Shown here: one piece after another, positions 1,743-32,582 of the stretch | How positions within the stretch are numbered: position 1 is the stretch's first letter | How the letters are laid out: each line of letters begins with the position of its first letter | Assembly: GCA_027621555.1 (NCBI GenBank) | Contig: JAQCBJ010000018.1 | Location: 1 to 33,899 of the forward strand | Source: Bacteroidota bacterium | GTDB lineage: Bacteria; Bacteroidota; Bacteroidia; Flavobacteriales_D; Sanyastnellaceae | Direction: 5' to 3' | Length of the DNA stretch: 33,899 nucleotides | Notes under the pieces: model-generated | What the model was told of the DNA's origin: nothing | Databases searched by the model: none | Seen by the model: the letters and a program-made list of their open reading frames with translations, nothing else | Program-made: the position numbers and the translations under genes

Positions 1743-3185
1743 TCAGGGGGAAGGGAGGTGGCGGTCCAGAAGCGCAACCAGCGCTGCGCACGTCGCGGCG
1801 CCGAGTTCGAGTTCCCGCTTGTGGACGTTTTCCCAAACGTCCTGACTCGTGTGGTGAAAGTCGAAGTACCGCTGACCGTCCGGCACCAGCCCCACCAGCA
1901 CGGGACGGGGTTCCAGTTCCTTCAACGGGCCGATGTCCACGCCGGACCCGCCCCGTCCGAAGTAGTGAAGGTTGTAGGGCTCGAGCATGTCGGCCCAGGA
2001 CCGAACAAGCGCGACCGGATCGTCCGTCGCGTCCATGCGCACGCCCCGAGGCACAAACCCTCCGGCGTCGGACTCCATCGCGGCCACGTGGCGCAAGCCC
2101 GCCTCGTGTTCTTCGCCCGCCACACGCGCGTATTCCTTGCCGCCCCGGTTGCCGTTCTCTTCGTTGATGAACAGCACAAACCGCAGCGTGCGCCGCGGGG
2201 CGTACCCCACGGCATTCAGGGCCCGCAACGCCTCGATGGTGTGGACGATGCCTGAGCCGTCGTCGTGCGCGCCCTCGCCAATGTCCCACGAATCGAGGTG
2301 GCCCCCGAGCGTGATGATTTCGTCAGGCCGTTCCGTGCCACGCCATTCGCCCACCACGTTGCCTTGCACGACCTCCCCGAGGTCCTGGCAGTTCATGCGG
2401 TAGCTGACCCGCACCTCCTCACCGCGCTCAGGAGCGGAGGCCACCGCGCGGGCGAGCATGGACGCGTCGACCGTCGAGACGGCCGCTGCAGGGATGCGCG
2501 TGATGCCGTCTTCGTAGCCCATGGCCCCAGTGTGCGGCACCGTGTCGAGCGCGTGGGTGAGGGAGCGCACCAGCACGCCCTTCGCGCCGGCCTTGGCCGC
2601 GGCAATGGCTCCTCGTCCGCGCTGGTCCCAGGCTCCGCCGTAGGCTGCGCCGGTGTTGATCAGCAGCGGATCCATGGGGCGGTTGAACAGCACGATGTGC
2701 CCGGTGGCGTCAAGCGTGTCGAGGGCGTCGAGGTGCTTGACCACAAGGAGGGGGCCTTCGAGCCAATCTTCGCCAGGGGTGGCCACGGAGCCGCCAAGGG
2801 CGGTGATGCGCAGTTCTTGGGCTTCTTGGCCCGGAAGCGTCGCGCTAGCTTCGGCGACGTCGCCGCGCGTCCACGACGGAACCGTTACGGGCATCACGTA
2901 GGCCGTGTCTGCCCCGGACGCTTGCAACACCTGCCGTCCCCATTCGATGGCCTGGTCTGCGCTCGGCGAACCGCTCAAACGGTGCCCGATGTCCTTGCAC
3001 AGGACGCGCAGGTTCTCGTGGGCTTCTCCGTGCGCCAGGACTTCGTCGAAGATGGCTCGAACGAGGGCGCTGTCGGTGGGCGCGGTTTGGGCTGAAGCAG
3101 GAGCCACAATCCACCCAGCGACAGCAAACATCCACAACAGCGTCGCGAACCGCGCGAACCATTGAAAAGGGAGAGAGGCATTCAT
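1743..3185 (-). CDS. M28 family zinc peptidase, carboxypeptidase Q-like
   Basis: A 480-residue exported peptidase with a signal peptide of about 32 residues ending in ASAQ. A PA-type insert spans roughly residues 135-255. The M28 catalytic domain follows with likely zinc ligands H296 (GGHLDSWDIG), D308 (AHDDGSG), E343 (NEENGNRGG), D373 (ESDAGG) and H444 or H445 (FDFHHTS); E342 would be the catalytic base. Such enzymes remove amino acids or dipeptides from peptides outside the cytoplasm. A longer in-frame reading to 3407 was rejected because the ATG at 3185 begins the signal peptide and has a promoter -7 box only 5 nt upstream. It is head-to-head with the methyltransferase gene, with 38 bp between start codons. 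Confidence 0.93.
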   Translation of the reverse strand: MNASLPFQWFARFATLLWMFAVAGWIVAPASAQTAPTDSALVRAIFDEVLAHGEAHENLRVLCKDIGHRLSGSPSADQAIEWGRQVLQASGADTAYVMPVTVPSWTRGDVAEASATLPGQEAQELRITALGGSVATPGEDWLEGPLLVVKHLDALDTLDATGHIVLFNRPMDPLLINTGAAYGGAWDQRGRGAIAAAKAGAKGVLVRSLTHALDTVPHTGAMGYEDGITRIPAAAVSTVDASMLARAVASAPERGEEVRVSYRMNCQDLGEVVQGNVVGEWRGTERPDEIITLGGHLDSWDIGEGAHDDGSGIVHTIEALRALNAVGYAPRRTLRFVLFINEENGNRGGKEYARVAGEEHEAGLRHVAAMESDAGGFVPRGVRMDATDDPVALVRSWADMLEPYNLHYFGRGGSGVDIGPLKELEPRPVLVGLVPDGQRYFDFHHTSQDVWENVHKRELELGAATCAALVALLDRHLPSP

Positions 3186-3190
3186 GGGAC

Positions 3191-3198
3191 GAAAGGTA
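3191..3198 (-). promoter_or_regulatory. -7 promoter element abutting the M28 peptidase start
   Basis: On the minus strand this reads TACCTTTC, one base off TAnnTTTG, and ends 5 nt before the ATG. Transcription would start at, or within a few nt of, the start codon. Confidence 0.5.
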
Positions 3199-3223
3199 GC
3201 GGGATGTGCCCGAACTTGGCCGC

Positions 3224-3832
3224 ATGAACATGTGGGACGAGCGCTATCGAGCGCATGAAACGGTGTACGGCACGAAGCCGAACGTGTTTTGGGCGAGCCA
3301 GCTGGGAATGCTGGCGCCCGGGTCTGTGGCGTTGCCGTGCGACGGCGAAGGCCGAAACGCCGTCTGGGCTGCCCACCAGGGATGGGACGTGTGGAGTTTC
3401 GACGCAAGCGAAGTGGGCGTGAAGAAGTCGCACGAACTGGCTGACGCCCATGACGTGCACATCGCCTGCGAGGTGGGCGACGCGTTTGCGGTGGAGCCGG
3501 GCCAGCAGTTCGATGTGGTGGGCTTGGTTTTCGCGCACATGCCGGAGCCGCGACGCGCCGAATTTCACCGCCGGGCTTGGTCGTGGGTGAAGCCCGGAGG
3601 CCACCTCATCGTGGAGGGCTTTCACAAGGACCAACTCGGCTTGACGTCGGGCGGCCCCAAGGACCTCGCGATGCTTTATTCGGAGACGACCGTGCCGGAC
3701 GACGTGTTGGTGAAGCAGGGGGAAGGGCGCGTGCTGTGGCAGGCGCGGTGTGAGCAAATACTCGACGAAGGACCGTTTCACCAAGGACGCGGCATCACGT
3801 GCCAGTGGGTCCTCCAAAAGGCCGGCGCATGA
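3224..3832 (+). CDS. Class I SAM-dependent methyltransferase
   Basis: A 202-residue soluble protein of the small TehB-like or Methyltransf_25 type. The N-terminal WDERY...YGTKPN motif is characteristic. The glycine-rich SAM loop is at about residues 35-45 with the variant LPCDGEGRNA instead of the usual LDLGCGEG. An acidic residue follows in FDAS (residue 60), and the post-I motifs DVVGLVFAH and VKPGGHLIVEGF are present. The substrate is not evident. The ATG at 3224 was preferred over GTG 3206: homologues begin close to WDERY, and GAACTTGG (3212-3219), a weak -7 look-alike, sits 4 nt before this ATG. Its TGA overlaps the ATG of the Smr gene (ATGA), so the two are probably translationally coupled. 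Confidence 0.88.
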   Translation: MNMWDERYRAHETVYGTKPNVFWASQLGMLAPGSVALPCDGEGRNAVWAAHQGWDVWSFDASEVGVKKSHELADAHDVHIACEVGDAFAVEPGQQFDVVGLVFAHMPEPRRAEFHRRAWSWVKPGGHLIVEGFHKDQLGLTSGGPKDLAMLYSETTVPDDVLVKQGEGRVLWQARCEQILDEGPFHQGRGITCQWVLQKAGA

Positions 3833-4442: not shown

Positions 4443-5315
4443 TTACTCGCCGTCTTCCGGAGCCGCGTCCTTGGCGCCACCTGAGGCGGCGTTCGAGTCG
4501 GCCTTTTCCTTCATCTCCTTCGCGACTTGGTTGATGTCGCGCCCGGGGACCTGCATCCACAGGTTGGGGGCGTCCAAGTTGAATTGCGCTGCGGCATTCA
4601 GGGTCACGAGTTCCATGGCGTGGGGAAGGGTGCCGCTGTCATCAGCAATGCCCCATTCAACTTTGAGCGGAACGCCCTCTGGCAAGATGACGTTTCGCAG
4701 CACCCTTTGGGGACGGTATTGCATCCATCCGGAGAACGCCGCGCGGAACGCAGCGAGTTGGTCTGGGTTGAACTCGAATGCGTTCACATCCGCCACCCAA
4801 ACGACCACGCGGTCCTTGCCTTCTTTTCCTGAAAATGCCAAACAAGGGTGACCCATGACCTCTATGGCTTCCAATTTCTTGTCGGCCTTCAAGATGCGAG
4901 GAGTCGCAGGTTCTTCCTCGGACCAATACCCTGCCATGGTCATCATTTGGGGCGACATGAAGGCCCCTTCCTGGTTTTCCAGGCTGACGGTGGCAAGAGG
5001 CGAATCGGGGCCCTTGACCAGGGTGTAGTTCCCCTGACGGTCCAATTGGTCCGTCCACATCAGGATGCCTTGCTCGGATTCCCAACGGATTTCTCCGACC
5101 GTTGTTCGCCCCCCTTGGGTCACGTTGCACGCCAAGTGACCTTGGAAGGAGAGAGGCGCGTCAGCGAGTGGCATTTGGGTGAGCCTCATCAGCTCTTCCA
5201 TCATTTCAGCACCGGTGACGTCGTTCTTGAGGTCAGGGGTTTGGGAGTGCATGGCGCCAACCCAACAGAGGGTCAAGCCGGTGAAAACGGGGCGGAGGAA
5301 TGCGGTCAAGTTCAT
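4443..5315 (-). CDS. Secreted protein of unknown function, DUF4412-like
   Basis: A 290-residue protein with a signal peptide (about residues 1-25, cleavage after MHSQ). The mature part alternates beta strands, with tracts such as LSFQGHLACNV, GEIRWESEQGILMWTD and a late helix followed by an acidic Ala/Gly/Asp tail. The layout, a short repetitive beta domain reporting on a small-molecule or lipid-like ligand, resembles the periplasmic DUF4412 proteins of Bacteroidota, but that is a loose resemblance. The start at ATG 5315 is supported by the signal peptide and by TATCTTGG 5 nt upstream; the longer open frame to 5708 has no features of a protein start. It lies 47 bp downstream of another secreted unknown on the same strand. 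Confidence 0.75.
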   Translation of the reverse strand: MNLTAFLRPVFTGLTLCWVGAMHSQTPDLKNDVTGAEMMEELMRLTQMPLADAPLSFQGHLACNVTQGGRTTVGEIRWESEQGILMWTDQLDRQGNYTLVKGPDSPLATVSLENQEGAFMSPQMMTMAGYWSEEEPATPRILKADKKLEAIEVMGHPCLAFSGKEGKDRVVVWVADVNAFEFNPDQLAAFRAAFSGWMQYRPQRVLRNVILPEGVPLKVEWGIADDSGTLPHAMELVTLNAAAQFNLDAPNLWMQVPGRDINQVAKEMKEKADSNAASGGAKDAAPEDGE

Positions 5316-5320: not shown

Positions 5321-5328
5321 CCAAGATA
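5321..5328 (-). promoter_or_regulatory. -7 promoter element abutting the start at 5315
   Basis: Minus strand TATCTTGG matches TAnnTT plus the final G of the consensus and ends 5 nt before the ATG. Confidence 0.5.
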
Positions 5329-6287: not shown

Positions 6288-7722
<1,435 letters not shown>

Positions 7723-7731
7723 TTTTGCAGC

Positions 7732-8931
7732 ATGATGGAACCTCGGAATCGAACACGTTTGGCGTGGATGTGGACAAGCCTGGCCGTGGCATGTGGCGTG
7801 GTCGTCTCGAGTTGCAGCACTGAGGTGGACCTGACGGCTCCCTACGACAGCTTGCCCGTGGTGTACGGCCTGCTTGAAGTTGAGGCCGACACCCAGTGGG
7901 TGAAGATCAACCGGACGTGGCTGGGGGAAGGAAGCCAGTTGATCGCCGCCCAAGTGGCGGACAGCTCGGAGTACCCTGCCGGCGCCATCGATGCCCGAAT
8001 CGTCGAACTCATCCCATCCAGTACTGGCGGGGTGGTGGGCAACGAATTGCCGACAGGGCGGGAGTGGACCTTGCGGGACACGCTTGTCGACAACAAGGAA
8101 ACGTCGGGGGCCTTTTTTGGGCCTTTGCAACGCGTGTACTTCGCGTCAACGCTCACGGAGCCCTTGCGCGACGACATGCTGTACCAGCTCGTGCTCGAAT
8201 TGCCCGACGGAAAGACCGCGCAGGCGACCACCACCATGGTGGAATCGAGCGCAGGATCCATCAACCAGCCTCCGCCCAACCTCCCCAACTACAAGATGGG
8301 ATTCGCGGCGGTGAACCCCAACGGGTCGGCGACTTACCCCAACTTCCCGTTCAAGTGGACAACCTCTCCGGGAGCGAGCTTGTACACAGCGTCGCTTGTG
8401 GTGCACGTGGAAGAGCGCTACTACGCCGACGACGCGTTGACCCTGCTCGACAGCTCGCGCGACCGCACGGTGACCATTCCCGTGGGAACCCGGAAGGTGA
8501 GCAACCTCGACGGCTTTCAAACCATCGACGAACCCTTCGACGGGGAGCGGTTGTTCACGGAGTTGAGCACGCGTTTGGAGGCCAATCCTCGCATCCGCCG
8601 TGTGCTGGGCCGCTACGACGCAAACTACCAATTGGAACGCGCGTTCGACTTTGAGCTTCAGGTGGCGAACCAGGATTTGGCCATTTTCCTCGACGTCAAC
8701 GAAACCAGCGGCAGCATCGTTCAAGACCGTCCGACGTGGACCAACATTGAAGTGATTGCGGCGGATGGAACACAGCTCGGTGGCATTGGCCTGTGGGGAT
8801 CGCGGACCACGTTAGGCGTGTACGGTTTAGGTTACTCCAAGCAAACCATCCAGCATTTGCAAGAGGGGGACCTCACCGCGGCGCTGAACTTCTGTTCGCC
8901 CAGCCCGTTGAGTGACTACAGCTGCGATTGA
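7732..8931 (+). CDS. Surface or periplasmic lipoprotein, DUF4249-like
   Basis: A 399-residue lipoprotein. The N-terminus has a basic region, a hydrophobic stretch and the lipobox VSSC with the lipidated cysteine near residue 28, followed by STEVDLTAPYD. The mature start (ACID-DL...PVVYGLLEVEADTQWVKINRTWLG) and the mixed beta pattern resemble DUF4249 proteins, which in Bacteroidota are often encoded next to TonB-dependent receptors. No receptor gene is present here, so this copy is an orphan. ATG 7735 immediately follows and could equally be used; the promoter element ends 4 nt before 7732. A hairpin 54 bp downstream may be its terminator. Confidence 0.8.
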   Translation: MMEPRNRTRLAWMWTSLAVACGVVVSSCSTEVDLTAPYDSLPVVYGLLEVEADTQWVKINRTWLGEGSQLIAAQVADSSEYPAGAIDARIVELIPSSTGGVVGNELPTGREWTLRDTLVDNKETSGAFFGPLQRVYFASTLTEPLRDDMLYQLVLELPDGKTAQATTTMVESSAGSINQPPPNLPNYKMGFAAVNPNGSATYPNFPFKWTTSPGASLYTASLVVHVEERYYADDALTLLDSSRDRTVTIPVGTRKVSNLDGFQTIDEPFDGERLFTELSTRLEANPRIRRVLGRYDANYQLERAFDFELQVANQDLAIFLDVNETSGSIVQDRPTWTNIEVIAADGTQLGGIGLWGSRTTLGVYGLGYSKQTIQHLQEGDLTAALNFCSPSPLSDYSCD

Positions 8932-13525: not shown

Positions 13526-13533
13526 TAAATTTG
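13526..13533 (+). promoter_or_regulatory. -7 promoter element abutting the tsaD start
   Basis: TAAATTTG is a perfect TAnnTTTG ending 6 nt before the tsaD ATG at 13540. No TTG is present at the expected -33 position. Confidence 0.65.
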
Positions 13534-13539: not shown

Positions 13540-14589
13540 ATGAATCGGAGAGAGGAACCCTTGGTGTTGGGCATTGAGTCGTCCTGCGACGACACTTCCG
13601 CGGCCGTCATTCGGGGCAACGTGGTCCTGAGCAACGTGGTGGCCAACCAAGCCCTTCATGCAGAGGTGGGGGGCGTCGTTCCGGAATGGGCGTCACGCGC
13701 TCACCTTTCCAAGATTCATCCCGTGGTTCAGGCCGCCCTTGTGAAGGCTGAAGTTCAGGCGTCCGAGTTGGATGCGGTGGCGTACACGTTGGGCCCGGGG
13801 CTGCAAGGCTCCCTTCACGTGGGGTCGTCTTACGCGAAGTCGCTCGCCTGGGGGCTTGGCATCCCGAGCATTCCGGTCCACCACATGCGGGCGCACATTC
13901 TGGCCCATGTGCTCGAGCCAGGCCCCATTCCGTCGTACCCCTTTTTGTGCCTGACGGTCAGTGGGGGGCACACCCAATTGGTTCGGGTCGATGACCCTCA
14001 ATCCATGAAGGTTTTGGGCCAAACGTTGGACGATGCCGCCGGAGAGGCCTTCGACAAAGTGGCCAAACTCATTGGGCTTCCTTACCCGGGCGGTCCCGTC
14101 GTGGACAAGCTTGCGGCGCAAGGCCAGTCGGATGCGTTCGCTTTTTCGCGTCCTAAAATGGATGGCTACAACTGGAGTTTCAGCGGATTGAAAACCCAGG
14201 TGTTGCACTTTCTGCAGAAGGAGCAGGCCGCCGATTCTTCCTTCGTGTCTCGGCGCAAGGAGGACATTTGCGCCTCTGTTCAGGCGGCCATCTTGGACAT
14301 GTTGATGGAGCCGTTGATCCGAGCCACACGCGAAACAGGCATTTACGAAGTGGCGATTGCAGGAGGCGTGAGCGCCAATTCAGGACTGCGAGCCCGCTTG
14401 AAGGAAGCTCAGGAGGAGCATGGCTGGGTGGTGCACATTCCGCCCATGGCCTATTGCACGGACAACGCGGCCATGATTGCTGCTGTTGGTTGGTTGGACC
14501 ACCTCGAGGGGCGCCAAGGATCCTTGGATGCCGCCCCGTCACCGCGCCTTCCCGAGCTCACGACGTTGGCAGGCGAGCCGGCAACGTGA
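13540..14589 (+). CDS. tsaD: tRNA N6-adenosine threonylcarbamoyltransferase TsaD
   Basis: A 349-residue cytoplasmic enzyme that transfers the threonylcarbamoyl group made by TsaC onto A37 of tRNAs reading ANN codons, acting with TsaB and TsaE. It opens with LVLGIESSCDDTSAAVI, and the metal-binding H-x-x-x-H is H115/H119 in VHHMRAHILA. SGGHTQLV (141-148), DDAAGEAFDKVAKLIGLPYPGG and the C-terminal AIAGGVSANSGLR and DNAAMIA motifs are all intact. Length is normal. The start is ATG 13540, right after a perfect promoter -7 box; the open frame runs upstream to 13147 but that is antisense to tamB. Its 3' end overlaps the convergent kinase gene by 32 bp. Confidence 0.98.
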   Translation: MNRREEPLVLGIESSCDDTSAAVIRGNVVLSNVVANQALHAEVGGVVPEWASRAHLSKIHPVVQAALVKAEVQASELDAVAYTLGPGLQGSLHVGSSYAKSLAWGLGIPSIPVHHMRAHILAHVLEPGPIPSYPFLCLTVSGGHTQLVRVDDPQSMKVLGQTLDDAAGEAFDKVAKLIGLPYPGGPVVDKLAAQGQSDAFAFSRPKMDGYNWSFSGLKTQVLHFLQKEQAADSSFVSRRKEDICASVQAAILDMLMEPLIRATRETGIYEVAIAGGVSANSGLRARLKEAQEEHGWVVHIPPMAYCTDNAAMIAAVGWLDHLEGRQGSLDAAPSPRLPELTTLAGEPAT

Positions 14590-15390: not shown

Positions 15391-15398
15391 TCAAGGTA
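15391..15398 (-). promoter_or_regulatory. -7-like element abutting the LytS-type kinase start
   Basis: Minus strand TACCTTGA keeps the TAnnTT core and ends 5 nt before the ATG. Confidence 0.4.
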
Positions 15399-18717: not shown

Positions 18718-18725
18718 TATGTTGC
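18718..18725 (+). promoter_or_regulatory. -7-like element abutting the 25-residue ORF
   Basis: TATGTTGC keeps the TAnnTT core and ends 4 nt before ATG 18730, the spacing seen at other genes in the window. Confidence 0.4.
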
Positions 18726-18729: not shown

Positions 18730-18807
18730 ATGCAAGTGATTTGGATTCTGACTGCCGTTTTGATTGTGACCTTGTTCATTCAATACCGCCGACGCCTCAA
18801 GCGCTGA
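18730..18807 (+). CDS. Candidate 25-residue single-pass membrane peptide
   Basis: The frame encodes MQVIWILTAVLIVTLFIQYR followed by RRLKR. A hydrophobic helix of about 17 residues fills the N-terminus and five basic residues follow, the orientation expected for a small inner-membrane protein with its C-terminus in the cytoplasm. It sits in the otherwise free 154-bp gap between the WD40 gene and hisS, and its ATG has a TAnnTT element 4 nt upstream, the same signal as at proven-looking genes nearby. No ribosome-binding site. The stop is 25 nt before the hisS start. Homology cannot be judged at this length, so the call rests on the promoter, the composition and the clean helix. Confidence 0.5.
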   Translation: MQVIWILTAVLIVTLFIQYRRRLKR

Positions 18808-18818: not shown

Positions 18819-18826
18819 TAATTTTG
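18819..18826 (+). promoter_or_regulatory. -7 promoter element abutting the hisS start
   Basis: TAATTTTG is a perfect TAnnTTTG ending 6 nt before the hisS ATG. No TTG is seen at the -33 position. Confidence 0.65.
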
Positions 18827-20227: not shown

Positions 20228-20847
20228 GTCGTTGCGTGAGCGCCATGTGCTTGGACGACGAGCCCCACTTTGCCAGGCACCAAGGGAAACCTCTCGGGCA
20301 TTTTGTTCGTGATTGAAAGGTTAATCAGTTGGTTGATAATGTTTGGTGCAAGGCATTTGCAATCAATAAGTAAAACATCGCTTTTGTGAAGTTTTTTAGC
20401 AGGCTCTAGGCCTTGGAGGAAGCACAAGGTCTGGTGCACTTGTTGGGCCACAGGTTGGAAATCGCCCCACGGCAAAACAGGGGTGCGCCCGACGTCAATC
20501 AGCAGCCTCAAACTTTTGCTCATGGACGAGAGAAGACGCTCCACGCGGTCGATTTCTTCGGGGTCAGAATCCACGTTGCACGCGTGCATTTCGTGTTGCA
20601 CCCGCAGCAGCATCCAGGCCACCCCTTCACGGAGCTGAAGATGCTGATCAAGGTGGGACGACTCGGCCGTCAAGCGCTTTTGGTGCTCGGCCAATTCTCC
20701 CAAACGCATGCTGACGTTTCGCGCGTGTTGAAGTCGTTCTTCCAACAAGCCCAAATCTGGAGCCGGACCCTCGATTTTTCTCTGCCTACCCAGCCACCAG
20801 CCCAATCCCAAACCTGCGGCCATCCCTAAAAACAGGCCAGCCGTCAT
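20200..20847 (-). CDS. Degenerate histidine-kinase-like membrane protein
   Basis: A 215-residue protein I cannot assign firmly. Residues 2-20 form a membrane helix (AGLFLGMAAGLGLGWWLG) with a basic stop, like the start of the LytS-type kinase at 15385. Residues 34-75 are coiled coil. Residues 72-120 (LREGVAWMLLRVQHEMHAC ... SKSLRLLIDVG) align by eye with the dimerisation helices of NarX-like kinases, and NIINQLINLSITNK (169-182) with an N box. The ATP-binding glycine boxes are missing and the chain stops about 30 residues later, so it should not be an active kinase. Its ATG overlaps the meaB stop (ATGA), implying translational coupling. Codons for residues 149-186 are strikingly AT-rich compared with everything around them. 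Confidence 0.65.
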   Translation of the reverse strand: MTAGLFLGMAAGLGLGWWLGRQRKIEGPAPDLGLLEERLQHARNVSMRLGELAEHQKRLTAESSHLDQHLQLREGVAWMLLRVQHEMHACNVDSDPEEIDRVERLLSSMSKSLRLLIDVGRTPVLPWGDFQPVAQQVHQTLCFLQGLEPAKKLHKSDVLLIDCKCLAPNIINQLINLSITNKMPERFPLVPGKVGLVVQAHGAHATTYSWASMPS

Positions 20848-21899
20848 CTTTTCCAGTCTGTCGGAAGCTTCACCCAGGCTCGGGCCGCGGAGTAGGGGCT
20901 TGATCGGCCTTCCACGACCTGACGCTCCAAGTCCTCCCAAGCTTCAGCCTTGTGGTGCATGTGGGCTTCGATCAGCAGTTGGCGTGCGTGCCGATGCATG
21001 GCGTCGAGCCGTTGTTGGTCGCGTTGCGTTTTCCACCATCCGGAAGCCGTCCATTCCTCACGAAGGTTGAGGATGCGCGTCCACAAGTCTTCGTGGCCTT
21101 CGCCCGTCAGGCTCGAAAGCATCAGCACATCGGCTGTTTGTCCGGAGGGCGGAGTGGGCAAGACGTGAAGGGCCTGTCGGTACGCGTTGGCGGTGTCTCG
21201 GCAGGCCGGCATGCGGTCCGCTTCTGCTTTGTGGACCAACAAGAGGTCCGCCATTTCCACCACCCCTCGCTTGATGCCTTGAACGTCATCGCCGGCGCCG
21301 CCGATGAGCATCAGGGCGAAGACGTCCACCATGCTCCGGACGGCCACCTCGCTTTGCCCCACGCCGACCGTCTCGACCAAGATCAGGTTGAAGCCGGCGG
21401 CTTCGCACAATTGGATGGCTTCCGAGGTGGCGCGCGAGACGCCGCCCAGAGTGGAGGAGGCTGCCGAAGGACGCACAAACGCCTCGGGGTGCTTGGAGAG
21501 TTCGGTCATGCGGGTTTTGTCCCCAAGCAGAGAACCTCCCGTGCGCTGGGAGGAGGGGTCCACAGCGAGCACCGCGACTTTCCAGCCTTCGGAAACGGCT
21601 CGCAGCCCAAACCGCTCAATCAGCGTGCTTTTTCCCGCTCCCGGAATGCCTGTAAATCCAATCCGAAGGCTTTGGTCCGAGGCGGGGAGCTCGGCGAGAA
21701 GGGCTTCGATGTGCGGTTGCTGGTCCGGCAAACTGCTCTCTACCCACGTGATGGCTTGCGCCAGGGCTTCTCGTTTGCCCTCGCGTACAGCCTCTGCAAG
21801 CGTCTGTGGCGTCCACGATTGTGCCCCTCGAATGGACATGCGAGCGGCGTCGCGGGCGCGCTTTTTGGCATCTTGCTTTCCCTGGTTGGTGGAGGCCAT
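20844..21899 (-). CDS. meaB: MeaB/ArgK family P-loop GTPase, methylmalonyl-CoA mutase chaperone
   Basis: A 351-residue G protein that protects and reloads the B12 cofactor of methylmalonyl-CoA mutase. Walker A is GIPGAGKSTLIERFG, followed by the family-specific AVLAVDPSSQRTGGSLLGDKTRM and RPSAASSTLGGVSRAT, the ETVGVGQSEVAV switch, and LLVHKAEAD in place of the NKxD motif. A helical N-terminus (residues 1-70) and C-terminal dimerisation arm are present. No mutase gene lies in this window. ATG 21899 (MASTNQGKQDAKKR) is used; TATCTTCC lies 4 nt upstream. The frame continues to 22397, but this is antisense to the divergent gene. The stop overlaps the next gene's start. Confidence 0.95.
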   Translation of the reverse strand: MASTNQGKQDAKKRARDAARMSIRGAQSWTPQTLAEAVREGKREALAQAITWVESSLPDQQPHIEALLAELPASDQSLRIGFTGIPGAGKSTLIERFGLRAVSEGWKVAVLAVDPSSQRTGGSLLGDKTRMTELSKHPEAFVRPSAASSTLGGVSRATSEAIQLCEAAGFNLILVETVGVGQSEVAVRSMVDVFALMLIGGAGDDVQGIKRGVVEMADLLLVHKAEADRMPACRDTANAYRQALHVLPTPPSGQTADVLMLSSLTGEGHEDLWTRILNLREEWTASGWWKTQRDQQRLDAMHRHARQLLIEAHMHHKAEAWEDLERQVVEGRSSPYSAARAWVKLPTDWKR

Positions 21900-21903: not shown

Positions 21904-21911
21904 GGAAGATA
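21904..21911 (-). promoter_or_regulatory. -7-like element abutting the meaB start
   Basis: Minus strand TATCTTCC keeps the TAnnTT core and ends 4 nt before the ATG. Confidence 0.4.
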
Positions 21912-21947: not shown

Positions 21948-21954
21948 TACTTTG
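21948..21954 (+). promoter_or_regulatory. -7-like element abutting the start at 21960
   Basis: TACTTTG lacks one spacer base of TAnnTTTG but otherwise matches, and ends 5 nt before the ATG. Confidence 0.35.
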
Positions 21955-21959
21955 TGGAC

Positions 21960-22715
21960 ATGCGTGTTGCGTTGACCGTCGTCGTTTTTTCCCTCGGACT
22001 GAACCTTGGGCTGATGGGAATCTCTTGGGCCCAAACCGCCTGCGACAGCGTCATCGTCATGTCGGGGTCGGTCTCCGACGAGTCGGGCCGCTGGGTGCCG
22101 TCTTCGATGGTCGTGAATCGGAGAACGAGTGCGGGGGAGTTTGTGGGCAGCGACGGCGAGTTCCTCTTGCGCGCGTGCTTGGGGGATACGCTGGTGTTTG
22201 GGGCCGTGGGCTACCACACCCAAGAGCGCGTGGTGCAGAGAATGGAGCGTTGGGAGATTCGGTTGCGCGTCCTGCGCGTGGAGGTCGGAGCGGCGGAGGT
22301 CATTGCGCCGAGAACGCTTCAGGAAATCGTGCGGGACATTCAGGCGCTTGGCTACCAAGAGGAAGATTTCCGGGTGTCGGGAATCAACGCGCTTCAAAGC
22401 CCCATCACGTTCCTGTACGAAACGTTTTCACGCGAAGCCCAAAGCCGCCGTCTCGTGGCCCAAATGGAAAACGACGATCGCCGCAGGGACCTGTTGCAGG
22501 AGCTGTTCACCAAGTACGTGGACTACGACATCGTGGAACTCGAACCCTGGGAATTCGAGGAGTTTGCCCGCTTTTGCGATCCTGGAGAGGACTTGCTCCA
22601 ACAGTGGTCCCAGTACGAGTTCATTCTCTACGTGAAACAGCGGTACCAATTGTTTCGGATGATGCCCCGAGAATTGCCTGCCAAAGAGATGGAATACCAC
22701 CTCGACGACGATTGA
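21960..22715 (+). CDS. Secreted protein with carboxypeptidase-regulatory-like domain
   Basis: A 251-residue exported protein with a signal peptide of about 24 residues ending SWAQ. Residues 30-105 form a small beta-sandwich (MSGSVSDESGRWVPSSMVVN ... LRACLGDTLVFGAVGYHTQE) of the CarboxypepD_reg-like type that precedes many TonB-dependent receptors. Here no receptor barrel follows; instead there is a helical domain (residues 112-251) rich in charged residues, ending in an acidic tail. Stand-alone proteins of this form are frequent in Bacteroidota and have no assigned function. ATG 21960 is used because the signal peptide begins there and a promoter-like element abuts it. It is divergent from meaB with 60 bp between starts. 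Confidence 0.82.
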   Translation: MRVALTVVVFSLGLNLGLMGISWAQTACDSVIVMSGSVSDESGRWVPSSMVVNRRTSAGEFVGSDGEFLLRACLGDTLVFGAVGYHTQERVVQRMERWEIRLRVLRVEVGAAEVIAPRTLQEIVRDIQALGYQEEDFRVSGINALQSPITFLYETFSREAQSRRLVAQMENDDRRRDLLQELFTKYVDYDIVELEPWEFEEFARFCDPGEDLLQQWSQYEFILYVKQRYQLFRMMPRELPAKEMEYHLDDD

Positions 22716-22735: not shown

Positions 22736-23041
22736 TCAGTCCACCAAGTAACTGAGCTGCAGGTACAGCACAAACCACTTGAACAGCATGCCGGCCACGC
22801 ACAGGCCTACGCCAGCGACGCGTGGAACTTGCCACTTCTCGTCGATGCGGTCGTAGCGGATGACGAGGTCCACGAACAGCGCAGCAACCGCGATGAGTTC
22901 CATGATGTTGACCACAGATTGCACTTCCCCCATGGCGTCGCGCCATGCCCGAGAGCGGTCCGTCAGGTGAGCCAAGAAGAAGGCCCCGTTGTACGTCAGC
23001 AGCAGAGCGAGAATGCCATTCAAGAGCCTGTGAGGAGTCAT
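22736..23041 (-). CDS. Small integral membrane protein of unknown function
   Basis: A 101-residue protein with three predicted membrane helices near residues 5-25, 45-62 and 74-97, separated by short charged loops (HLTDRSRAWRDAMGEVQ and RYDRIDEKWQVPR). No signal peptide or known motif is visible. The start at ATG 23041 is well supported: a perfect TACTTTTG promoter element ends 5 nt upstream, whereas the longer frame to 23071 would run through that promoter. It is divergent from a tiny lipoprotein gene, with 82 bp between starts. Confidence 0.75.
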   Translation of the reverse strand: MTPHRLLNGILALLLTYNGAFFLAHLTDRSRAWRDAMGEVQSVVNIMELIAVAALFVDLVIRYDRIDEKWQVPRVAGVGLCVAGMLFKWFVLYLQLSYLVD

Positions 23042-23046: not shown

Positions 23047-23054
23047 CAAAAGTA
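23047..23054 (-). promoter_or_regulatory. -7 promoter element abutting the start at 23041
   Basis: Minus strand TACTTTTG is a perfect TAnnTTTG ending 5 nt before the ATG. A TTG lies 16 bp upstream, slightly closer than the usual 19-21. Confidence 0.65.
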
Positions 23055-23088: not shown

Positions 23089-23119
23089 TTGACTTTCTCT
23101 CTTTTTTGGTTCACTTTAG
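23089..23119 (+). promoter_or_regulatory. Promoter abutting the small lipoprotein start
   Basis: TTG at 23089-23091, 20 bp, then CACTTTAG at 23112-23119 (two mismatches to TAnnTTTG), ending 4 nt before ATG 23124. Confidence 0.45.
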
Positions 23120-26958: not shown

Positions 26959-26966
26959 TAAAGGTA
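26959..26966 (-). promoter_or_regulatory. -7 promoter element of the LysM operon
   Basis: Minus strand TACCTTTA, one mismatch to TAnnTTTG, 20 nt before GTG 26938. Its outer two bases are shared with the opposing -7 element of the hybrid kinase. Confidence 0.45.
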
Positions 26967-26972
26967 TTTTAG
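26965..26972 (+). promoter_or_regulatory. -7 promoter element abutting the hybrid kinase start
   Basis: TATTTTAG, one mismatch to TAnnTTTG, ends 5 nt before ATG 26978. Confidence 0.5.
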
Positions 26973-26977: not shown

Positions 26978-28645
26978 ATGGAACGTCCGCGATTGTCCTC
27001 GGAGGATTCTTCACGCTTGCTGACATTGCTTGAGGAAAACTTGCAGGGTCATCAAGTGGTGTTGGAGCAAATCAAAGCTCTGCAGGAGAGTGAACACAAG
27101 TACAGGTCGATTTTGGAAGAACTCGACATTGGGTACATGGAAGTGGATCGCGAGGGCAACATAATCCGAGTGCATCCCCGATTTCTTTCCATCACGGGAT
27201 ACAGAGAGGCCGACTTGCTTGGCAAGAATGGCAACGTCATGTTGGACGAGGAGGGCAAGGCTCTCATGGCCGAAATCGTAGAATTGCGAAAAAAGGGGTT
27301 GGCCAACTCCTACGAATTGCCGGTTCGCCATCGGTTGGGCCATCGGATTTGGCTTTTGATCACAGGAGCACCTCTCAAGAGTTTGTCAGGTGAGGTGCTC
27401 GGCTCGGTGGGCATTCACTTCGACATCACAGAACGGAAGGAACTGGAAATGGAAACCAACCGGGCGTTGGCGTCGGAAGCGTTCGCCCGAAAACGAGAGC
27501 GCAACTTGTTGATGAAGATGAGCCACGAAATTCGTACGCCCATCAACGCCATCAACGGAATGTTCCACTTGATGAAGGATGTGCCTCGCACGCCCGAGCA
27601 AGAGGCGCTTTGGCAGGGGGCAATGCGGGCTTCCAAGATGCTCCGTCAAGTGGTGGACGACGTGTTGGATTTGTCCAAATTGGAAATAGGACAACCCACG
27701 GTGAAGCGCACCAAGGTCAACGTGGTCGAAGTCACCTCAGGCATTGCGAAAATGCACCACCTGCTTGCCGAGGAAAAGGGGGTGTTCTTGAATTGCGGTT
27801 GCCGCTTGGAGGAAAAGCGTCGGGTCATCGACGTGGACAAATGGTTGCAGATCTTGACCAACTTGTTGGGGAACGCCATCAAGTTCACGGAGAAAGGGGG
27901 CGTCACCTTGGACATTTGGGAGGACCCCCAGAGGCCCGATTGGATTTTTGCGGAGGTTGCGGACGAAGGGCCAGGCATCCCCGAAGCCCTTCGTGAAAGA
28001 ATCTTTGAGCCTTTTGGATTGAGCCCCGGCGAGAATGTGTTCGATGAGGTTCGGGTGGACGCCGGAACCACAGGTTTGGGGCTTTCGATTGCGCGAGAAT
28101 TGGCTCGGCTGCTCGGTGGGGACCTGTTGTTGATGCCTTCAGCGAAGGGGGCGAGGTTTGTGCTTGAGATGCCGGCTCCGACTTGGGTGGAAGCCGACAA
28201 GGAGGGCTCTGCAGGGGCAGTCTCCGATGTGCGGGATGAGGGCGGTGTGCCGCTTTGGGATGGAGAGGGGATGACGGTGCTCCTTGCCGAGGACAACGAA
28301 ATCAACGTGCTCTATGCGCGAGCTCTTTTCCAGAGATGGAGCGTGGATGTGGACGTGGCTGCGGATGGCATTGAAGCGTTGGAGTGCCTGGGCAAGCGAG
28401 ATTACGACGTGGTGCTTTTGGATGTCCAAATGCCCAACCTGGATGGACTGGCCACGTTGCGCCGCATCCGTTCCAACGAACGCGCCACGGGAGTGGCGAG
28501 CCTTCGTCCCGTCTACATGGTTACGGCGTTCGCGGATGACGAGACACGGCAGGAAGCGGAACAGGCGGGGGCAACGGGGTTTGTGACCAAGCCCTTCGGA
28601 CCTCAGGTGATGCTGGATGTTCTCAAGGCTGTTCGAGCAAAGTGA
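26978..28645 (+). CDS. Hybrid sensor histidine kinase: PAS, HisKA, HATPase, receiver
   Basis: A 555-residue soluble hybrid kinase without membrane segments. A coiled coil at 10-40 leads into a PAS domain (41-155, YRSILEELDIGYMEVDREGN to GIHFDITERK). HisKA carries H183 in MSHEIRTPIN. The ATPase has N299 in LLGNAIKFTEKG, VADEGPGIPEA (G1) and GTTGLGLSIARELA (G2). A linker leads to a receiver domain (431-555) with acidic D439, phospho-acceptor D482 in LLDVQMPNLDG, and K538 in VTKPFG. All catalytic residues are intact. The cytoplasmic PAS suggests sensing of an intracellular cue such as redox or a small ligand. No output regulator or HPt gene is adjacent. It is divergent from the LysM operon with 39 bp between starts. 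Confidence 0.95.
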   Translation: MERPRLSSEDSSRLLTLLEENLQGHQVVLEQIKALQESEHKYRSILEELDIGYMEVDREGNIIRVHPRFLSITGYREADLLGKNGNVMLDEEGKALMAEIVELRKKGLANSYELPVRHRLGHRIWLLITGAPLKSLSGEVLGSVGIHFDITERKELEMETNRALASEAFARKRERNLLMKMSHEIRTPINAINGMFHLMKDVPRTPEQEALWQGAMRASKMLRQVVDDVLDLSKLEIGQPTVKRTKVNVVEVTSGIAKMHHLLAEEKGVFLNCGCRLEEKRRVIDVDKWLQILTNLLGNAIKFTEKGGVTLDIWEDPQRPDWIFAEVADEGPGIPEALRERIFEPFGLSPGENVFDEVRVDAGTTGLGLSIARELARLLGGDLLLMPSAKGARFVLEMPAPTWVEADKEGSAGAVSDVRDEGGVPLWDGEGMTVLLAEDNEINVLYARALFQRWSVDVDVAADGIEALECLGKRDYDVVLLDVQMPNLDGLATLRRIRSNERATGVASLRPVYMVTAFADDETRQEAEQAGATGFVTKPFGPQVMLDVLKAVRAK

Positions 28646-29342: not shown

Positions 29343-29807
29343 CTATTGGCAGAGCACGTTGGCAGCCCACGCGGCCATCAGCAGGTCCGGCTTGACCTTC
29401 GAATCGAACCCGAGCGAAGTGATGTAGCCCGAGCTGGCGCTCACCAGTTTGTGACTCGCGTATTTGCTGTCGCTGTTGAAATCGAGGTCGATTTGGTGCA
29501 CGCGCAAGTTGCACTCTGCGAGGATGAGGTTGGCCAGAGCCACCGACCGCTCTGTCTCTCCCCAAAGCTTGGTCCACATGTCGAGGATCTTCGGCACGCG
29601 TTCGCGTCGGTAGATGACGTGGGCTCCGTTGTTGGGGAAGCGGAAGACGACGGTCGTGACGTAGACGGTGTGCCGCTTGTGGTTTTGGGAGTCGCATCCC
29701 ACGTGGACTTGAACGTCGGATTCGCTGGTCATGGCGGTGATGTACTCGCACACGTCGTGCTTCAACCTTCCGCCCATCACCGTGAATTTCCTGTGGCTCT
29801 CGTCCAT
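29343..29807 (-). CDS. YkuK family RNase H-fold protein (DUF458)
   Basis: A 154-residue soluble protein of the DUF458/YkuK family, which adopts an RNase H-like fold. Landmarks are VHVGCDSQNHKRHTVYVTTV with the first acidic residue D49 of the putative active site, VFRFPNNGAHVIYRRERVP, and IDLDFNSDSKYASHKLV, which supplies further aspartates near residues 115-122. Activity has not been established for the family; a nuclease role is inferred from fold. ATG 29807 is used rather than TTG 29837; a TAnnTT element (TAGCTTGA) lies 5 nt upstream. It lies directly behind the terminator of the metalloprotease gene and thus has its own promoter. Confidence 0.9.
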   Translation of the reverse strand: MDESHRKFTVMGGRLKHDVCEYITAMTSESDVQVHVGCDSQNHKRHTVYVTTVVFRFPNNGAHVIYRRERVPKILDMWTKLWGETERSVALANLILAECNLRVHQIDLDFNSDSKYASHKLVSASSGYITSLGFDSKVKPDLLMAAWAANVLCQ

Positions 29808-29812: not shown

Positions 29813-29820
29813 TCAAGCTA
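29813..29820 (-). promoter_or_regulatory. -7-like element abutting the YkuK-like gene start
   Basis: Minus strand TAGCTTGA keeps the TAnnTT core and ends 5 nt before the ATG. It is 15 bp downstream of the preceding gene's terminator. Confidence 0.4.
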
Positions 29821-29935: not shown

Positions 29936-32569
29936 TTAACGGTCCAGCGCCACGTCGATGAGGTGACGCACGTGGGCGCGGTGCGCTCGGGTCAGGCCGT
30001 CGGGCGACGAAGCGTCGCGTTGCTGGCGATCGATGCGGCGGAGCTGGGCCAAGACCACGCTCTGTGCCACGCCATTCAGTCGGCTCTTGTCATCGAGCGA
30101 CTTGATCAACGCCTCGACGTACATCAACTGCAAGCCCTGGCGGTAGGTGTTGACGGACGAACGGAGGTCGGCCTTGAAGATGGCGTCGGTGAGGTCGTCC
30201 ATGTACTCGGCCAAATCGTAGGTGTTCCCGTACAGTCCGCTGTCCAGAACGCGCATCAGTACGTTGGGGTGGACGAGGTGCGACAGGGCGCCTCGCTGCG
30301 CTCCGGCCACGCGGGCGTGAACCTTAGGATCCTCGCCGCCACCAAAGAACCCAAACCCGCGACGCTGCGCTTGCAGGTAGGCCAAGACGTCGGCCTGCGC
30401 TTCAAACGCGTTCGGCGCGAACGCGTAGGTGCTCAAGGCTTTCATCGCGGCTTTTTGGTCGGCCTCCGACACGGGGGTGTAGGGCGCGGCGCCGTCGAGC
30501 TGCGCCGGGGTGGCGCGGTTGTAGCGGACGCCGCCGATTTGGCGCGTCATCACACGCAGCTGGGTGGCGTATTCGCCGGTCAAGGCGTAGTACGCACGAA
30601 GCACCTCTTGATGGCTGTCCACGCCCGGCGCGAAGTTCTCGACGAGGGAGGGGAGCAGGTCGTTGACGAGCTCGCAACGCTCGGCGGCGTACGCGACCGG
30701 ATCGCTGCTCAAGTCGTAGATGTTCACGTCGGGGTTGATGCCACGTCCCGTGCTGCGCATGTCGTCCGCGTCGTTGCCAAACTGCAGCAGCGGATCCGTC
30801 GAGCGCTCCAAAATCGCGCTCAACCGCGCCGCTTCCGCGTCGGCATCGTCAAGCCCCACGCTGTAGCCGTAGTCAATGACCCACTTGTCGTAAGGGCCTG
30901 GGCTGTCGTCGTAGAAGCGCGTTTGCTCTGACTTGTTTCGGGCAAAGTTGATGGACGGGTATTCCATCACGGAGTTGCACATGCCGTTTTCCGCCACCTT
31001 GGCGGCGTCCTTGAGCTCGTCAGGGCTGAGCATCGTGCTGGCGTGCATGTTGTGGCTCATGCCAAGGGTATGACCAACTTCGTGCAGGACGAGGCGGTGA
31101 AGGGTTTGCCGCACAAACTCCGCGTGCTCTTCGTCGGTGAAGCTGTACGCGCGCATGGCGGCCGCGGCCAAGAGGCTGTTGCGTCCCATCACGGTGCCGG
31201 CGTGGCAGCGGCTCATTTGCTCGGCAAAGACCTCGCGCGCGGAGCGATTCTCAAGCTCGGTGTCGAGCTCGGCGTACTCCTCGTCCATGGCCTCTTCAAT
31301 CATGCCGGCCTTGGAGAAGACCTCAGCGCGCCACAGGCGACCGACCATCCCGCCGTACTCGAGCATGATGTCCGCGCCGAGGATCTCGCCAGTGCGGGGG
31401 TTCACGAAACTGGGGCCGTATCCCGAGAACGGGGGAGAAGGAGAGGCCGTCCAACGCAGCACGTTGTAACGGACGTCGCCGGCGTTCCAATCGGCGTCGT
31501 CGGGCTGGATCTTCACCACCACAGCGTTCTTGAATCCGAGCGGTTCGAACGCCTGGTTCCACTTCTCGACGCCCGCCTTGATGATGGGGCGGAATTCTTC
31601 GGGGGTTGTGTTTTCAATCCACCACGTGATGGGCTCCACCGGCTCCGACATCGCCGCAGACGGGTCCTTCTTTTCGAGGCGCCACCGGTGAATCATGTCG
31701 CGCCAAGGGGCTGCGCTGACGCCCGTCAGGTCGTCGACTTCCGTGGTGAAGAACCCGATGCGTGGATCGTCCGCGCGCGGCGTGAATCCGTCCTCTGGCA
31801 TGGGCAACAACGCATGGCGGTAGCCCACCGTCACGTAGCGGCCGTCCTCAAATTCAGGACCGCCGACGCTTGGGCTGCCGTTGTCGTACACGTAGTCCAC
31901 GGACAATTCCGTGTTCTTGGGGTAGTTCGCGACGTACACCACCTTGCTCTTCGACTTGCTGAGTTTGCCCAACGCCGACTTTCCGCCAGGGCGTGAAGGG
32001 GGCTTGATCATTTGCAAGTCTTCGTTCAGGAAGAGGGCGTCCGCAGAAATCACCACGCCGGTGCTGTCCTCGGCTTCAATCTTGACGCTGGCGAGGATGG
32101 GGGTGTTGAGGTTGGCGTCGGCCGCTTTGCTCAAGGCGTTGGCCGGGTCCACATGGAAGTTGGTGTTCTCCGCATGCACTTCCAATTGCCCAAAATGCCG
32201 GTGAAACGTCACCACTTTGCTCCCGCGGTAGCTCCCGCGGAAAAACCCGCTCGACACCACGCCGTCCTCGACTTGCGAGAAGTAAATGAATTCATTGTCC
32301 ATGGCGGTCGCGGGCACGTGCAGGTACATGTCCCCCTTGACGGTGTCTTGGTAGAGGTTGAACAGGCCTTCTTCGATGCGGAAATCCTTGGTGAATTCCG
32401 ACACCGTCTTCAGGTCGTCCTTGCCGCCTTTTTTCTTGCCGTCCACCTGTTCGGTGTCGCCTTTTTTGCCCTTCTTTTTCTTGCCTTTTTGGGCCAAACC
32501 TTCTGCCGGCGCGAAGCTCAGCAGGGCCGCGGCGAGGGAGAGTGCCGCCCAACGTGCAGTTCGTTTCAT
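29936..32569 (-). CDS. Exported zinc-dependent metalloprotease (DUF5117/DUF5118 family)
   Basis: An 877-residue exported protease with a signal peptide (residues 1-26, ending GLAQ) and a strongly basic low-complexity stretch (KGKKKKGKKG ... GKKKGGKDD) just after it. An N-terminal region with FRGSYRGSKVVTFHRHFGQL matches the DUF5118/5117 part of this Bacteroidota family. The zinc site is LVLHEVGHTLGMSHN, the H-E-x-x-H-x-x-G-x-x-H metzincin motif, with the downstream Met-turn likely NSVMEYPSINF. The rest is helical. Such proteins are periplasmic or surface proteases of unknown natural substrate. ATG 32569 is supported by the signal peptide and by TACCTTGT 5 nt upstream. It has a strong terminator 72 nt downstream. 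Confidence 0.92.
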   Translation of the reverse strand: MKRTARWAALSLAAALLSFAPAEGLAQKGKKKKGKKGDTEQVDGKKKGGKDDLKTVSEFTKDFRIEEGLFNLYQDTVKGDMYLHVPATAMDNEFIYFSQVEDGVVSSGFFRGSYRGSKVVTFHRHFGQLEVHAENTNFHVDPANALSKAADANLNTPILASVKIEAEDSTGVVISADALFLNEDLQMIKPPSRPGGKSALGKLSKSKSKVVYVANYPKNTELSVDYVYDNGSPSVGGPEFEDGRYVTVGYRHALLPMPEDGFTPRADDPRIGFFTTEVDDLTGVSAAPWRDMIHRWRLEKKDPSAAMSEPVEPITWWIENTTPEEFRPIIKAGVEKWNQAFEPLGFKNAVVVKIQPDDADWNAGDVRYNVLRWTASPSPPFSGYGPSFVNPRTGEILGADIMLEYGGMVGRLWRAEVFSKAGMIEEAMDEEYAELDTELENRSAREVFAEQMSRCHAGTVMGRNSLLAAAAMRAYSFTDEEHAEFVRQTLHRLVLHEVGHTLGMSHNMHASTMLSPDELKDAAKVAENGMCNSVMEYPSINFARNKSEQTRFYDDSPGPYDKWVIDYGYSVGLDDADAEAARLSAILERSTDPLLQFGNDADDMRSTGRGINPDVNIYDLSSDPVAYAAERCELVNDLLPSLVENFAPGVDSHQEVLRAYYALTGEYATQLRVMTRQIGGVRYNRATPAQLDGAAPYTPVSEADQKAAMKALSTYAFAPNAFEAQADVLAYLQAQRRGFGFFGGGEDPKVHARVAGAQRGALSHLVHPNVLMRVLDSGLYGNTYDLAEYMDDLTDAIFKADLRSSVNTYRQGLQLMYVEALIKSLDDKSRLNGVAQSVVLAQLRRIDRQQRDASSPDGLTRAHRAHVRHLIDVALDR

Positions 32570-32574
32570 GACGG

Positions 32575-32582
32575 ACAAGGTA
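32575..32582 (-). promoter_or_regulatory. -7-like element abutting the metalloprotease start
   Basis: Minus strand TACCTTGT keeps the TAnnTT core and ends 5 nt before the ATG. Confidence 0.4.

Follow-up and report, generated by a model that had tools for sequence, protein, structure and literature searches.

Where does a message begin when the promoter box stands almost against the start codon? The question is raised by a 33.9-kb contig (C28; JAQCBJ010000018.1), referred to here at its full length as the window, from the 2.12-Mb draft genome of an uncultured Flavobacteriales bacterium (Bacteroidota) in 129 contigs (completeness 92.45%, contamination 4.97%). Judged by hisS, the named genomes nearest to it belong to uncultured Flavobacteriales and 'Crocinitomicaceae', with identities of at most 78%. 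In this window an octamer resembling TAnnTTTG, the -7 element of Bacteroidota promoters, recurs a few nucleotides (nt) before the ATG of many genes. Based on the placement of this box here and in related genomes, we consider it highly probable that in this clade the -7 box is positioned so that messenger RNAs (mRNAs) begin at the start codon, i.e. that initiation is leaderless. Leaderless initiation as such is already known from other bacteria and from archaea; the novelty lies in how extensive it is in a clade whose characterized relatives are leadered, and in a genome without an excess of Shine-Dalgarno (SD) sites at its other genes.

Position of the box relative to the start codon

The initial annotation of the window had predicted that the hexamer core TAnnTT would form a sharp peak just before ATG across the genome. 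Such a peak was found in 528 kb, the part used in the first peak test of a sample that comprised the window and 41 further stretches (approximately 549 kb together). Before 663 near-start ATGs, TAnnTT occurred 47 times at a hexamer gap of 6 nt and 21 times at a gap of 7 nt, compared with a mean of 2.65 per gap at gaps of 13-60, while internal in-frame ATGs were preceded by it at these two gaps combined in only 5 of 3051 cases (a hexamer gap of 6 nt corresponds to an octamer gap of 4 nt). The peak was retained when only coding signal decided the weights of the starts of 412 genes, which kept the motif from influencing the choice of start: TA[ACT][ACT]TT reached 24.3 and 11.5 weighted sites against approximately 1.4 per position. 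Across the whole genome, which was counted without gene calls at two fixed spacings only, TANNTTTG stood 4 nt before ATG 60 times and 12 nt before ATG 4 times, and the reversed pattern gave 12 and 6, respectively.

Within the window, the 13 TAnnTT sites first listed all lie at the coordinates reported and on the coding strand of the respective gene, with the octamer 4 nt (4 genes), 5 nt (7 genes) or 6 nt (2 genes) before the ATG. The distance of 4-6 nt originally given is accurate for the octamer; the six-letter core ends 6-8 nt before the ATG. The accompanying estimate of a chance occurrence below 1% per start is right, since A and T make up 19.7% and 20.2% of the window. A search of both strands of the whole window for TAnnTT-N6..8-ATG returned 14 matches, namely the 13 sites and one before the gene starting at 21960, all of them on predicted gene starts, whereas 300 first-order Markov resamples of the window yielded a mean of 1.6 matches and a maximum of 7, and the actual window, searched at four sets of control spacings, gave 1 to 3 matches per set. 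The additional site had been placed among three weaker variants of the box; it carries the exact core, and the other two do not. The boxes and the genes that they precede are as follows.

3191-3198, minus strand: -7 box TACCTTTC, 5 nt before the ATG of the M28 peptidase gene (1743-3185, minus strand; Pfam Peptidase_M28, 1.1e-21)
5321-5328, minus strand: -7 box TATCTTGG, 5 nt before the ATG of gene 4443-5315 (minus strand; no Pfam or NCBIfam match)
7720-7727, plus strand: -7 box TAATTTTG, 4 nt before the ATG of gene 7732-8931
13526-13533, plus strand: -7 box TAAATTTG, 6 nt before the ATG of tsaD (13540-14589; TsaD, 3.6e-94)
15391-15398, minus strand: -7 box TACCTTGA, 5 nt before the ATG of a LytS-type histidine kinase gene (14558-15385, minus strand; His_kinase, 3.4e-15)
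18684-18691, minus strand: -7 box TATTTTCG, 4 nt before the ATG of a WD40 gene (17822-18679, minus strand)
18718-18725, plus strand: -7 box TATGTTGC, 4 nt before the ATG of an open reading frame (ORF) of 25 amino acids (aa)
18819-18826, plus strand: -7 box TAATTTTG, 6 nt before the ATG of hisS (18833-20227; TIGR00442, 4.9e-110)
21904-21911, minus strand: -7 box TATCTTCC, 4 nt before the ATG of meaB (20844-21899, minus strand; MeaB, 6.8e-87)
21948-21955, plus strand: -7 box TACTTTGT with exact core, 4 nt before the ATG of gene 21960-22715
23047-23054, minus strand: -7 box TACTTTTG, 5 nt before the ATG of a gene for a 101-aa membrane-like protein (22736-23041, minus strand; no Pfam match)
26965-26972, plus strand: -7 box TATTTTAG, 5 nt before the ATG of a PAS/HisKA/receiver hybrid kinase gene (26978-28645)
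29813-29820, minus strand: -7 box TAGCTTGA, 5 nt before the ATG of a YkuK-like gene (29343-29807, minus strand; PF04308 RNaseH_like, 3.6e-20)
32575-32582, minus strand: -7 box TACCTTGT, 5 nt before the ATG of a met-zincin gene (29936-32569, minus strand; DUF4953 Met-zincin, 5.8e-73)
3212-3219, plus strand: weak variant GAACTTGG, no exact core, 4 nt before the ATG of a methyltransferase gene (3224-3832)
23112-23119, plus strand: weak variant CACTTTAG, no exact core, 4 nt before the ATG at 23124

The starts of several of these genes have support that is independent of the box: Met1 of TsaD is the sole methionine within its first 60 residues, and signal-peptide-like N-termini were recognized by eye in the products of the M28 peptidase gene, gene 4443-5315 and the met-zincin gene. 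The M28 peptidase and methyltransferase genes are divergent, with 38 nt between their starts. The protein of 21960-22715 matches CarbopepD_reg_2 at 4e-5, under Pfam's curated cut-off, and the DUF4249-like name given to 7732-8931 was not borne out, with no Pfam or NCBIfam match to its product.

A pattern of this kind could in principle arise by chance, or through starts having been chosen to fit the motif, given that the starts of the initial annotation were chosen by eye and that the two-class model described below can favour starts with a good box. However, 14 of 14 matches in the window fall on predicted gene starts where 1.6 would be expected anywhere, and the peak persists with starts weighted by coding signal only, in counts of the whole genome made free of gene calls, and at orthologous starts. 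We take this explanation as refuted by the whole-genome counts and the orthologues.

Transcription or translation signal

To express these observations as a proportion of genes, a two-class model was fitted in which a start has either a box at an offset of 2-8 or none, the fit being started from TAnnTTTG. Genes were called with a simple codon-usage caller, on which the resulting fractions depend, such that the values for all genes and for divergent genes are to be taken as roughly 0.4 and 0.6. The model assigned 0.435 of 412 genes to the leaderless class (bootstrap 0.389-0.491) and, among divergent genes, which form the informative class because each must carry its own promoter, 0.652 of 126 (bootstrap 0.53-0.763). 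For genes behind a co-directional neighbour the fraction was 0.228 of 135 at distances of at most 30 nt, 0.571 of 55 at 31-80 nt and 0.433 of 81 above 80 nt. An attempt to obtain a null by free-matrix expectation-maximization on shifted upstream windows proved unusable, as the procedure converged on different, T-rich matrices, for which the fractions were 0.23-0.53. The matrix was instead fixed from the real starts, then evaluated on held-out halves, and then replaced by a generic matrix. Divergent genes gave 0.70 and 0.68 in the two held-out halves and 0.00-0.18 in twelve shifted controls (the same matrix 8 to 38 nt further upstream), and the generic matrix, whose fit was not limited to this genome, gave 0.39 of all genes and 0.61 of divergent genes. 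The trait is enriched at the first genes of transcription units (0.652 at divergent against 0.228 at close co-directional genes), and we estimate that over half of the genes needing their own promoter would start leaderless.

The fitted octamer reads roughly T, A, not G, C or T, T, T, not A, G, with A at the second position at.90, G rare at both H positions (.08 and.03), the TT pair at.94 and.97 and the last G at.59, and is of the TAnnTTTG/TAHHTTTG type that characterizes the -7 box of the Bacteroidota sigma-A (sigma-ABfr). Its distance of 4 or 5 nt to the start codon equals the distance reported in Flavobacterium johnsoniae between the -7 element, TAHHTTTG, and the transcription start (PMC6847099). 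Furthermore, TAnnTT[TC]G was present at most 70 nt upstream of 9 of 10 transfer RNA (tRNA) genes, at distances of 10 to 55 nt, and the one gene without it stands second in a tandem pair; of the ten genes, eight belong to this genome and two to one genome of its genus, and the 46 named loci that were searched held no tRNA gene. As tRNA genes are untranslated, the octamer therefore acts in transcription.

These results bear directly on a different explanation, in which the octamer is a translation signal (non-SD or Kozak-like) within leadered mRNAs whose true promoter lies further upstream. Such a signal would suit Bacteroidota, which lack SD sites, with F. johnsoniae reported to tune initiation by the bases near the start (PMC6847099), and some close co-directional genes are also assigned to the leaderless class (fraction 0.228). 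However, besides its presence before tRNA genes, the octamer is enriched precisely at divergent genes, where few sites lie further upstream: 30 boxes were found at 15-79 nt against approximately 11 expected from the coding background rate. In addition, 15 of 63 divergent pairs have at most 50 nt between their two starts, which leaves little room for two leadered promoters. We judge a translation signal of this kind very unlikely. The narrower idea that TAnnTT serves the ribosome at the RNA level was rejected on account of the octamer before tRNA genes. Use of SD sites by the remaining genes was also rejected: no SD excess was seen before either class of starts, the SD core preceding 4 of the 141 starts called leaderless and 20 of the 271 others, compared with 18.4% and 8.5% in a control stretch.

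A subtler distinction is whether the mRNAs are truly leaderless or carry very short leaders of 1-10 nt. Octamer gaps of 6-8 nt account for 22 of the 141 leaderless calls, and in the window hisS and tsaD both have a gap of 6. Short leaders nevertheless appear quite unlikely as the general rule, with gap 4 (79 calls) and gap 5 (32 calls) together making up 111 of the 141 at the very distance that separates promoter and transcription start in F. johnsoniae (PMC6847099), and with the gaps just beyond nearly empty: among the 126 divergent genes, boxes above a fixed score numbered 44 at 3-5 nt, 12 at 6-8, 1 at 9-14, 9 at 15-24 and 6 at 25-34. The base preceding the start codon is C at 63 of 79 sites with gap 4 and 30 of 32 with gap 5, as expected if the A of ATG were position +1 in both.

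Conservation and phylogenetic distribution

Orthologous starts were compared between this genome and eight others (one from its genus, seven from near relatives) in 85 pairs of at least 45% identity, with alignments reaching residue 1-4 of the protein from this genome. For leaderless calls the start codon was shared in 28 of 28 pairs (14 genes), a figure partly built in because only pairs meeting those thresholds were kept, and TAnnTT was retained at a gap of 6-8 in 22 of the 28, with 10 of the 14 genes keeping it in at least one relative. Other genes shared the start codon in 41 of 57 pairs, and had the core at a gap of 6-8 in 0 of 41; a core somewhere at gaps 20-38 was found in 8 of 41 pairs of these genes versus 0 of 28 of the leaderless calls. 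Among genes of the window, the WD40 gene has TAnnTT at a 6-nt gap to the ATG in its orthologues L002-L005 and L008 (48-54% protein identity), the gene for the 101-aa membrane-like protein keeps both start and core in L003-L008 (61-70% identity), and the YkuK-like gene keeps the core in L002, L005, L006 and L007. The hisS box stands at an octamer gap of 5 or 6 in L002-L008, which itself would be compatible with a short leader at this gene, and has moved or been lost in many more distant relatives. Per-locus peaks around hisS hold too few genes each, with orthologues shared, and were used as a lead and in pooled groups only. The hisS of records L041, L058 and L053, titled Chryseobacterium gleum (L041, with 67% G+C) or Sphingomonadales, ranks among uncultured Flavobacteriales/Crocinitomicaceae bins, and these titles look doubtful.

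Upstream of hisS, the box at 18718-18725 precedes a short gene that is itself conserved.

18730-18807, plus strand: conserved ORF for a 25-aa hydrophobic, basic-tailed microprotein (MQVIWILTAVLIVTLFIQYRRRLKR), upstream of hisS, with its own box at gap 4

Compared with seven relatives, this ORF shows 61 codon differences and only 3 residue changes; TATGTT is found at the same gap in L002-L007, and a search for the tail pattern recovered the ORF or a close variant ahead of hisS at 29 of 44 related loci. The microprotein has no Pfam or NCBIfam match.

With regard to the translation machinery, no 16S rRNA gene was found for this genome in the assembly; 9 of 41 family genomes searched gave a match, 8 of them over the full model, and the anti-SD core CCTCC is kept in 7 of these 8 full-length sequences. 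In L244 (genome G097, genus g4, same family) the core reads TCTCC, not CCTCC, and the genome shows a clear preference for gap 4 (87 octamers, versus 17 at gap 12). The 16S match ends near model position 873-902 in four draft genomes (L115, L116, L117 and L248), where the contig ends in L115 and L117 and a run of N lies in L116, so that assembly or masking breaks are the probable cause. Ribosomal protein bS21 is present, with Tyr at residue 54, which we take to be the pocket residue. Its gene, rpsU (L220, G000:C65, near 1505-1663, minus strand), has an octamer, TATTTTTG, well upstream of its start, and a similar octamer lies upstream in L085, L087 and L088; rpsU seems to keep a leader and may be among the genes that must stay leadered.

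To examine how far the preference extends, occurrences of TANNTTTG-N4-ATG, and likewise those at gap 12, were counted in 120 genomes of the order (all rows) and expressed as the mean number per genome in excess of the reversed pattern.

Own family (f1), 31 genomes: gap-4 excess 57.5, gap-12 excess 0.0
f10, 3 genomes: gap-4 excess 71.3, gap-12 excess -5.0
f9, 30 genomes: gap-4 excess 69.6, gap-12 excess 21.7
f4, 8 genomes: gap-4 excess 31.2, gap-12 excess 2.9
f8, 4 genomes: gap-4 excess 21.5, gap-12 excess 19.2
f3, 30 genomes: gap-4 excess 21.8, gap-12 excess 28.0
f13, 6 genomes: gap-4 excess 8.3, gap-12 excess 20.0
Eight other genomes of six families: family means -6.0 to 61.0 at gap 4 and -8.0 to 59.0 at gap 12

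The ratio varies inside f1, from 197 at gap 4 versus 13 at gap 12 in three genomes of the same genus to 53 versus 50 in genus g29. Among named genomes, PL36329bin_36 has 48 at gap 4 and 1 at gap 12, and four Chryseobacterium genomes have 123-142 occurrences at gap 4 and 113-136 at gap 12, which exceed the reversed pattern by 50-77 and 41-55, respectively. The cultured Lishizhenia tianjinensis was considered as a positive example on account of 2 sites at one locus, and was set aside on its whole-genome counts of 111 (gap 4) and 88 (gap 12) against reversed controls of 97 and 85.

In a survey of the phylum (158 rows, read by eye and not tallied as a whole) the gap-4 preference was not seen in many of the rows. 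All eight genomes of group f33 (G176, G206, G233, G248, G252, G260, G283 and G291), which lies outside the class, favour gap 4 (329 versus 86 in sum), as does G262 (f15), outside the order (80 versus 19). In sampled stretches the model fraction of all and of divergent genes was 0.14 and 0.28 in two f33 genomes and 0.13 and 0.23 in G262. The preference in these two lineages may represent independent origins of leaderless starts. By the same measure for all genes, the fractions were 0.39 in this genome, 0.45 in the same genus, 0.58 in L002-L008, 0.24 in other f1 genera, 0.16 in Crocinitomicaceae-like loci, 0.10 in the f9/f10 sample, 0.10 in the f3-f5 sample, 0.06 in the f6-f8/f11/f12 sample and 0.04 in Chryseobacterium and Moheibacter.

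These surveys also allow an assessment of whether the pattern is ordinary for the order, with nothing to set this clade apart. On gap 4 alone it might seem so, since f9 and f10 exceed f1, the four Chryseobacterium genomes match the excess of 48 in this genome, and f33 shows the same preference from outside the order. However, several of the other groups also have leadered sites, as judged by the gap-12 excess (0.0 in f1, compared with 28.0 in f3, 21.7 in f9, 20.0 in f13 and 41-55 in Chryseobacterium), the model fractions of this genome and of L002-L008 stand well above the 0.04 of Chryseobacterium and Moheibacter, and F. johnsoniae and F. psychrophilum have been measured as mostly leadered (PMC6847099, PMC9723704). 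The number of exact octamers at gap 4 is ordinary here; the near-empty gap 12, the other distance counted, is the unusual part. We regard an explanation by order-wide habit as unlikely. The preference peaks in this genus and the genomes close to it, is found widely across the family and in part of the order, is weak or absent elsewhere, and possibly arose more than once. The initial annotation was correct in describing a heavy leaderless signal in this genome; its single-genome framing was too narrow, as the trait belongs to a clade and shows in some other Bacteroidota lineages.

Proposed mechanism and comparison with known systems

Together, these findings suggest a simple model. The octamer would be a -7 promoter element of Bacteroidota type, placed most often 4 or 5 nt before the start codon, such that RNA polymerase would start at the A of the AUG or within approximately 2 nt of it and yield an mRNA without a leader, which the ribosome would take by its 5'-terminal AUG without SD pairing. 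Genes inside operons, which are mostly not leaderless and show no SD excess, would for these reasons probably depend on translation of the preceding gene. The original reading, that these mRNAs begin at or within a few nucleotides of the AUG, is supported by the positional peak, the divergent genes, the orthologues, the tRNA genes and the spacing known from F. johnsoniae.

Several observations weigh against this reading, in addition to the selection effect in the shared orthologous starts. Transcription starts are inferred from promoter geometry, and operon coupling and the mode of ribosome binding are likewise inferred; the genome is a draft bin with the contamination given above; and the gene caller is crude, its initial run on the window having missed tsaD and meaB. 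At 2 of the 13 sites first listed in the window, those of tsaD and hisS, the gap of 6 agrees better with a 1-2 nt leader than with a leaderless mRNA. The fit was begun at TAnnTTTG and its result is looser than that motif (first T only.54, seventh position mixed), shifted controls were high in the smaller co-directional groups (up to 0.43 at 31-80 nt and 0.24 above 80 nt), and close co-directional genes gave 0.11 and 0.35 in the two held-out halves. C at position -1 is also common at other starts (151 of 271) and is no clean mark of a transcription start, and a -33 element (TTTG) was not evident in the base composition of the 141 sites, as read by eye. Around hisS in L009-L045, L063 and L074 there is a second TAnnTT peak at a hexamer gap of 9 (24.1 weighted sites, divergent genes), which is probably one orthologous site counted repeatedly, with a 2-3 nt leader. 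Finally, in Chryseobacterium and Moheibacter the model fraction was 0.534 for the 15 divergent genes compared with 0.042 for all 100 genes, which counts against a clean contrast with those genera; the fraction with exact cores in the same 15 genes was 0.008, and we take the higher value as noise from few, partly orthologous genes.

More broadly, we propose that a family of mostly uncultured Flavobacteriales, and perhaps separately f33 and G262, uses leaderless initiation as the main way to start transcription units, and that the loss of SD contact made the leader dispensable, so that leaderless transcription would have arisen more than once in a mainly leadered phylum; we see the chances of this wider proposal as evenly balanced. 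For the question of how Bacteroidota ribosomes find start codons, this clade, in which most genes with their own promoter look leaderless, offers a natural comparison with the related F. johnsoniae: both have the same promoter type and no SD sites, one with leaders and the other without. Gene-prediction programs that rely on a ribosome site ahead of the gene may call wrong starts in genomes of this kind, in which the promoter box itself is a good marker of the start codon and points to very short genes such as the 25-aa ORF before hisS.

Previous work on the phylum provides mixed support for novelty. Bacteroidota are described as SD-scarce, with ribosomes that hide the anti-SD tail, and one sentence of the same source ties leaderless mRNA to Flavobacteriia without an anti-SD core (PMC10783764); many Bacteroidetes genes are reported to lack a consensus ribosome site (PMC4535381), and a further study assigns AT-rich non-canonical ribosome sites to the FCB group and predicts leaderless starts in up to 40% of transcripts for 21.6% of bacterial species (PMC9581028). 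Three Bacteroidota with mapped transcripts are mostly leadered, and of the 37 Bacteroidetes/Chlorobi genomes in the in-silico survey of Zheng (2011), one is reported to have leaderless genes, at 2.4% (PMC3160421). Among the matches listed in a search of titles and abstracts, with subscription papers and preprints largely outside its scope, we found no description of a Bacteroidota clade with mostly leaderless first genes. The novelty originally claimed is upheld by the mapped species and the survey; the literature as a whole is not entirely on its side.

Among known systems, one of the closest is that of the leaderless ('TA-led') genes of Actinobacteria and Deinococcus-Thermus, which according to the survey average 19.2% and 39.4%, respectively; there, too, a large proportion of genes have a promoter-like box immediately ahead of the start codon (PMC3160421). 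Here, however, the box belongs to the TAnnTTTG type of Bacteroidota, and SD-led starts, the usual alternative, are lacking, since the remaining genes show no SD excess. Another close system is that of F. johnsoniae, which shares the TAnnTTTG box, the spacing of 4 or 5 nt, a -33 element much less evident than the -7 element, and the lack of SD sites (PMC6847099). In that species leaderless mRNA is reported to be ruled out as an explanation for initiation, and 87% of its predicted leaders exceed 10 nt, with a mean of 33 nt, whereas here, by the model, more than half of divergent genes have their start codon where transcription is expected to begin. Similarly, F. psychrophilum has the same TAnnTTTG box, at -12 to -5, yet only 5.5% of its mRNAs are reported as leaderless (PMC9723704), and in Bacteroides thetaiotaomicron only approximately 3.7% of 5' untranslated regions are reported to be under 10 nt (PMC7366714).

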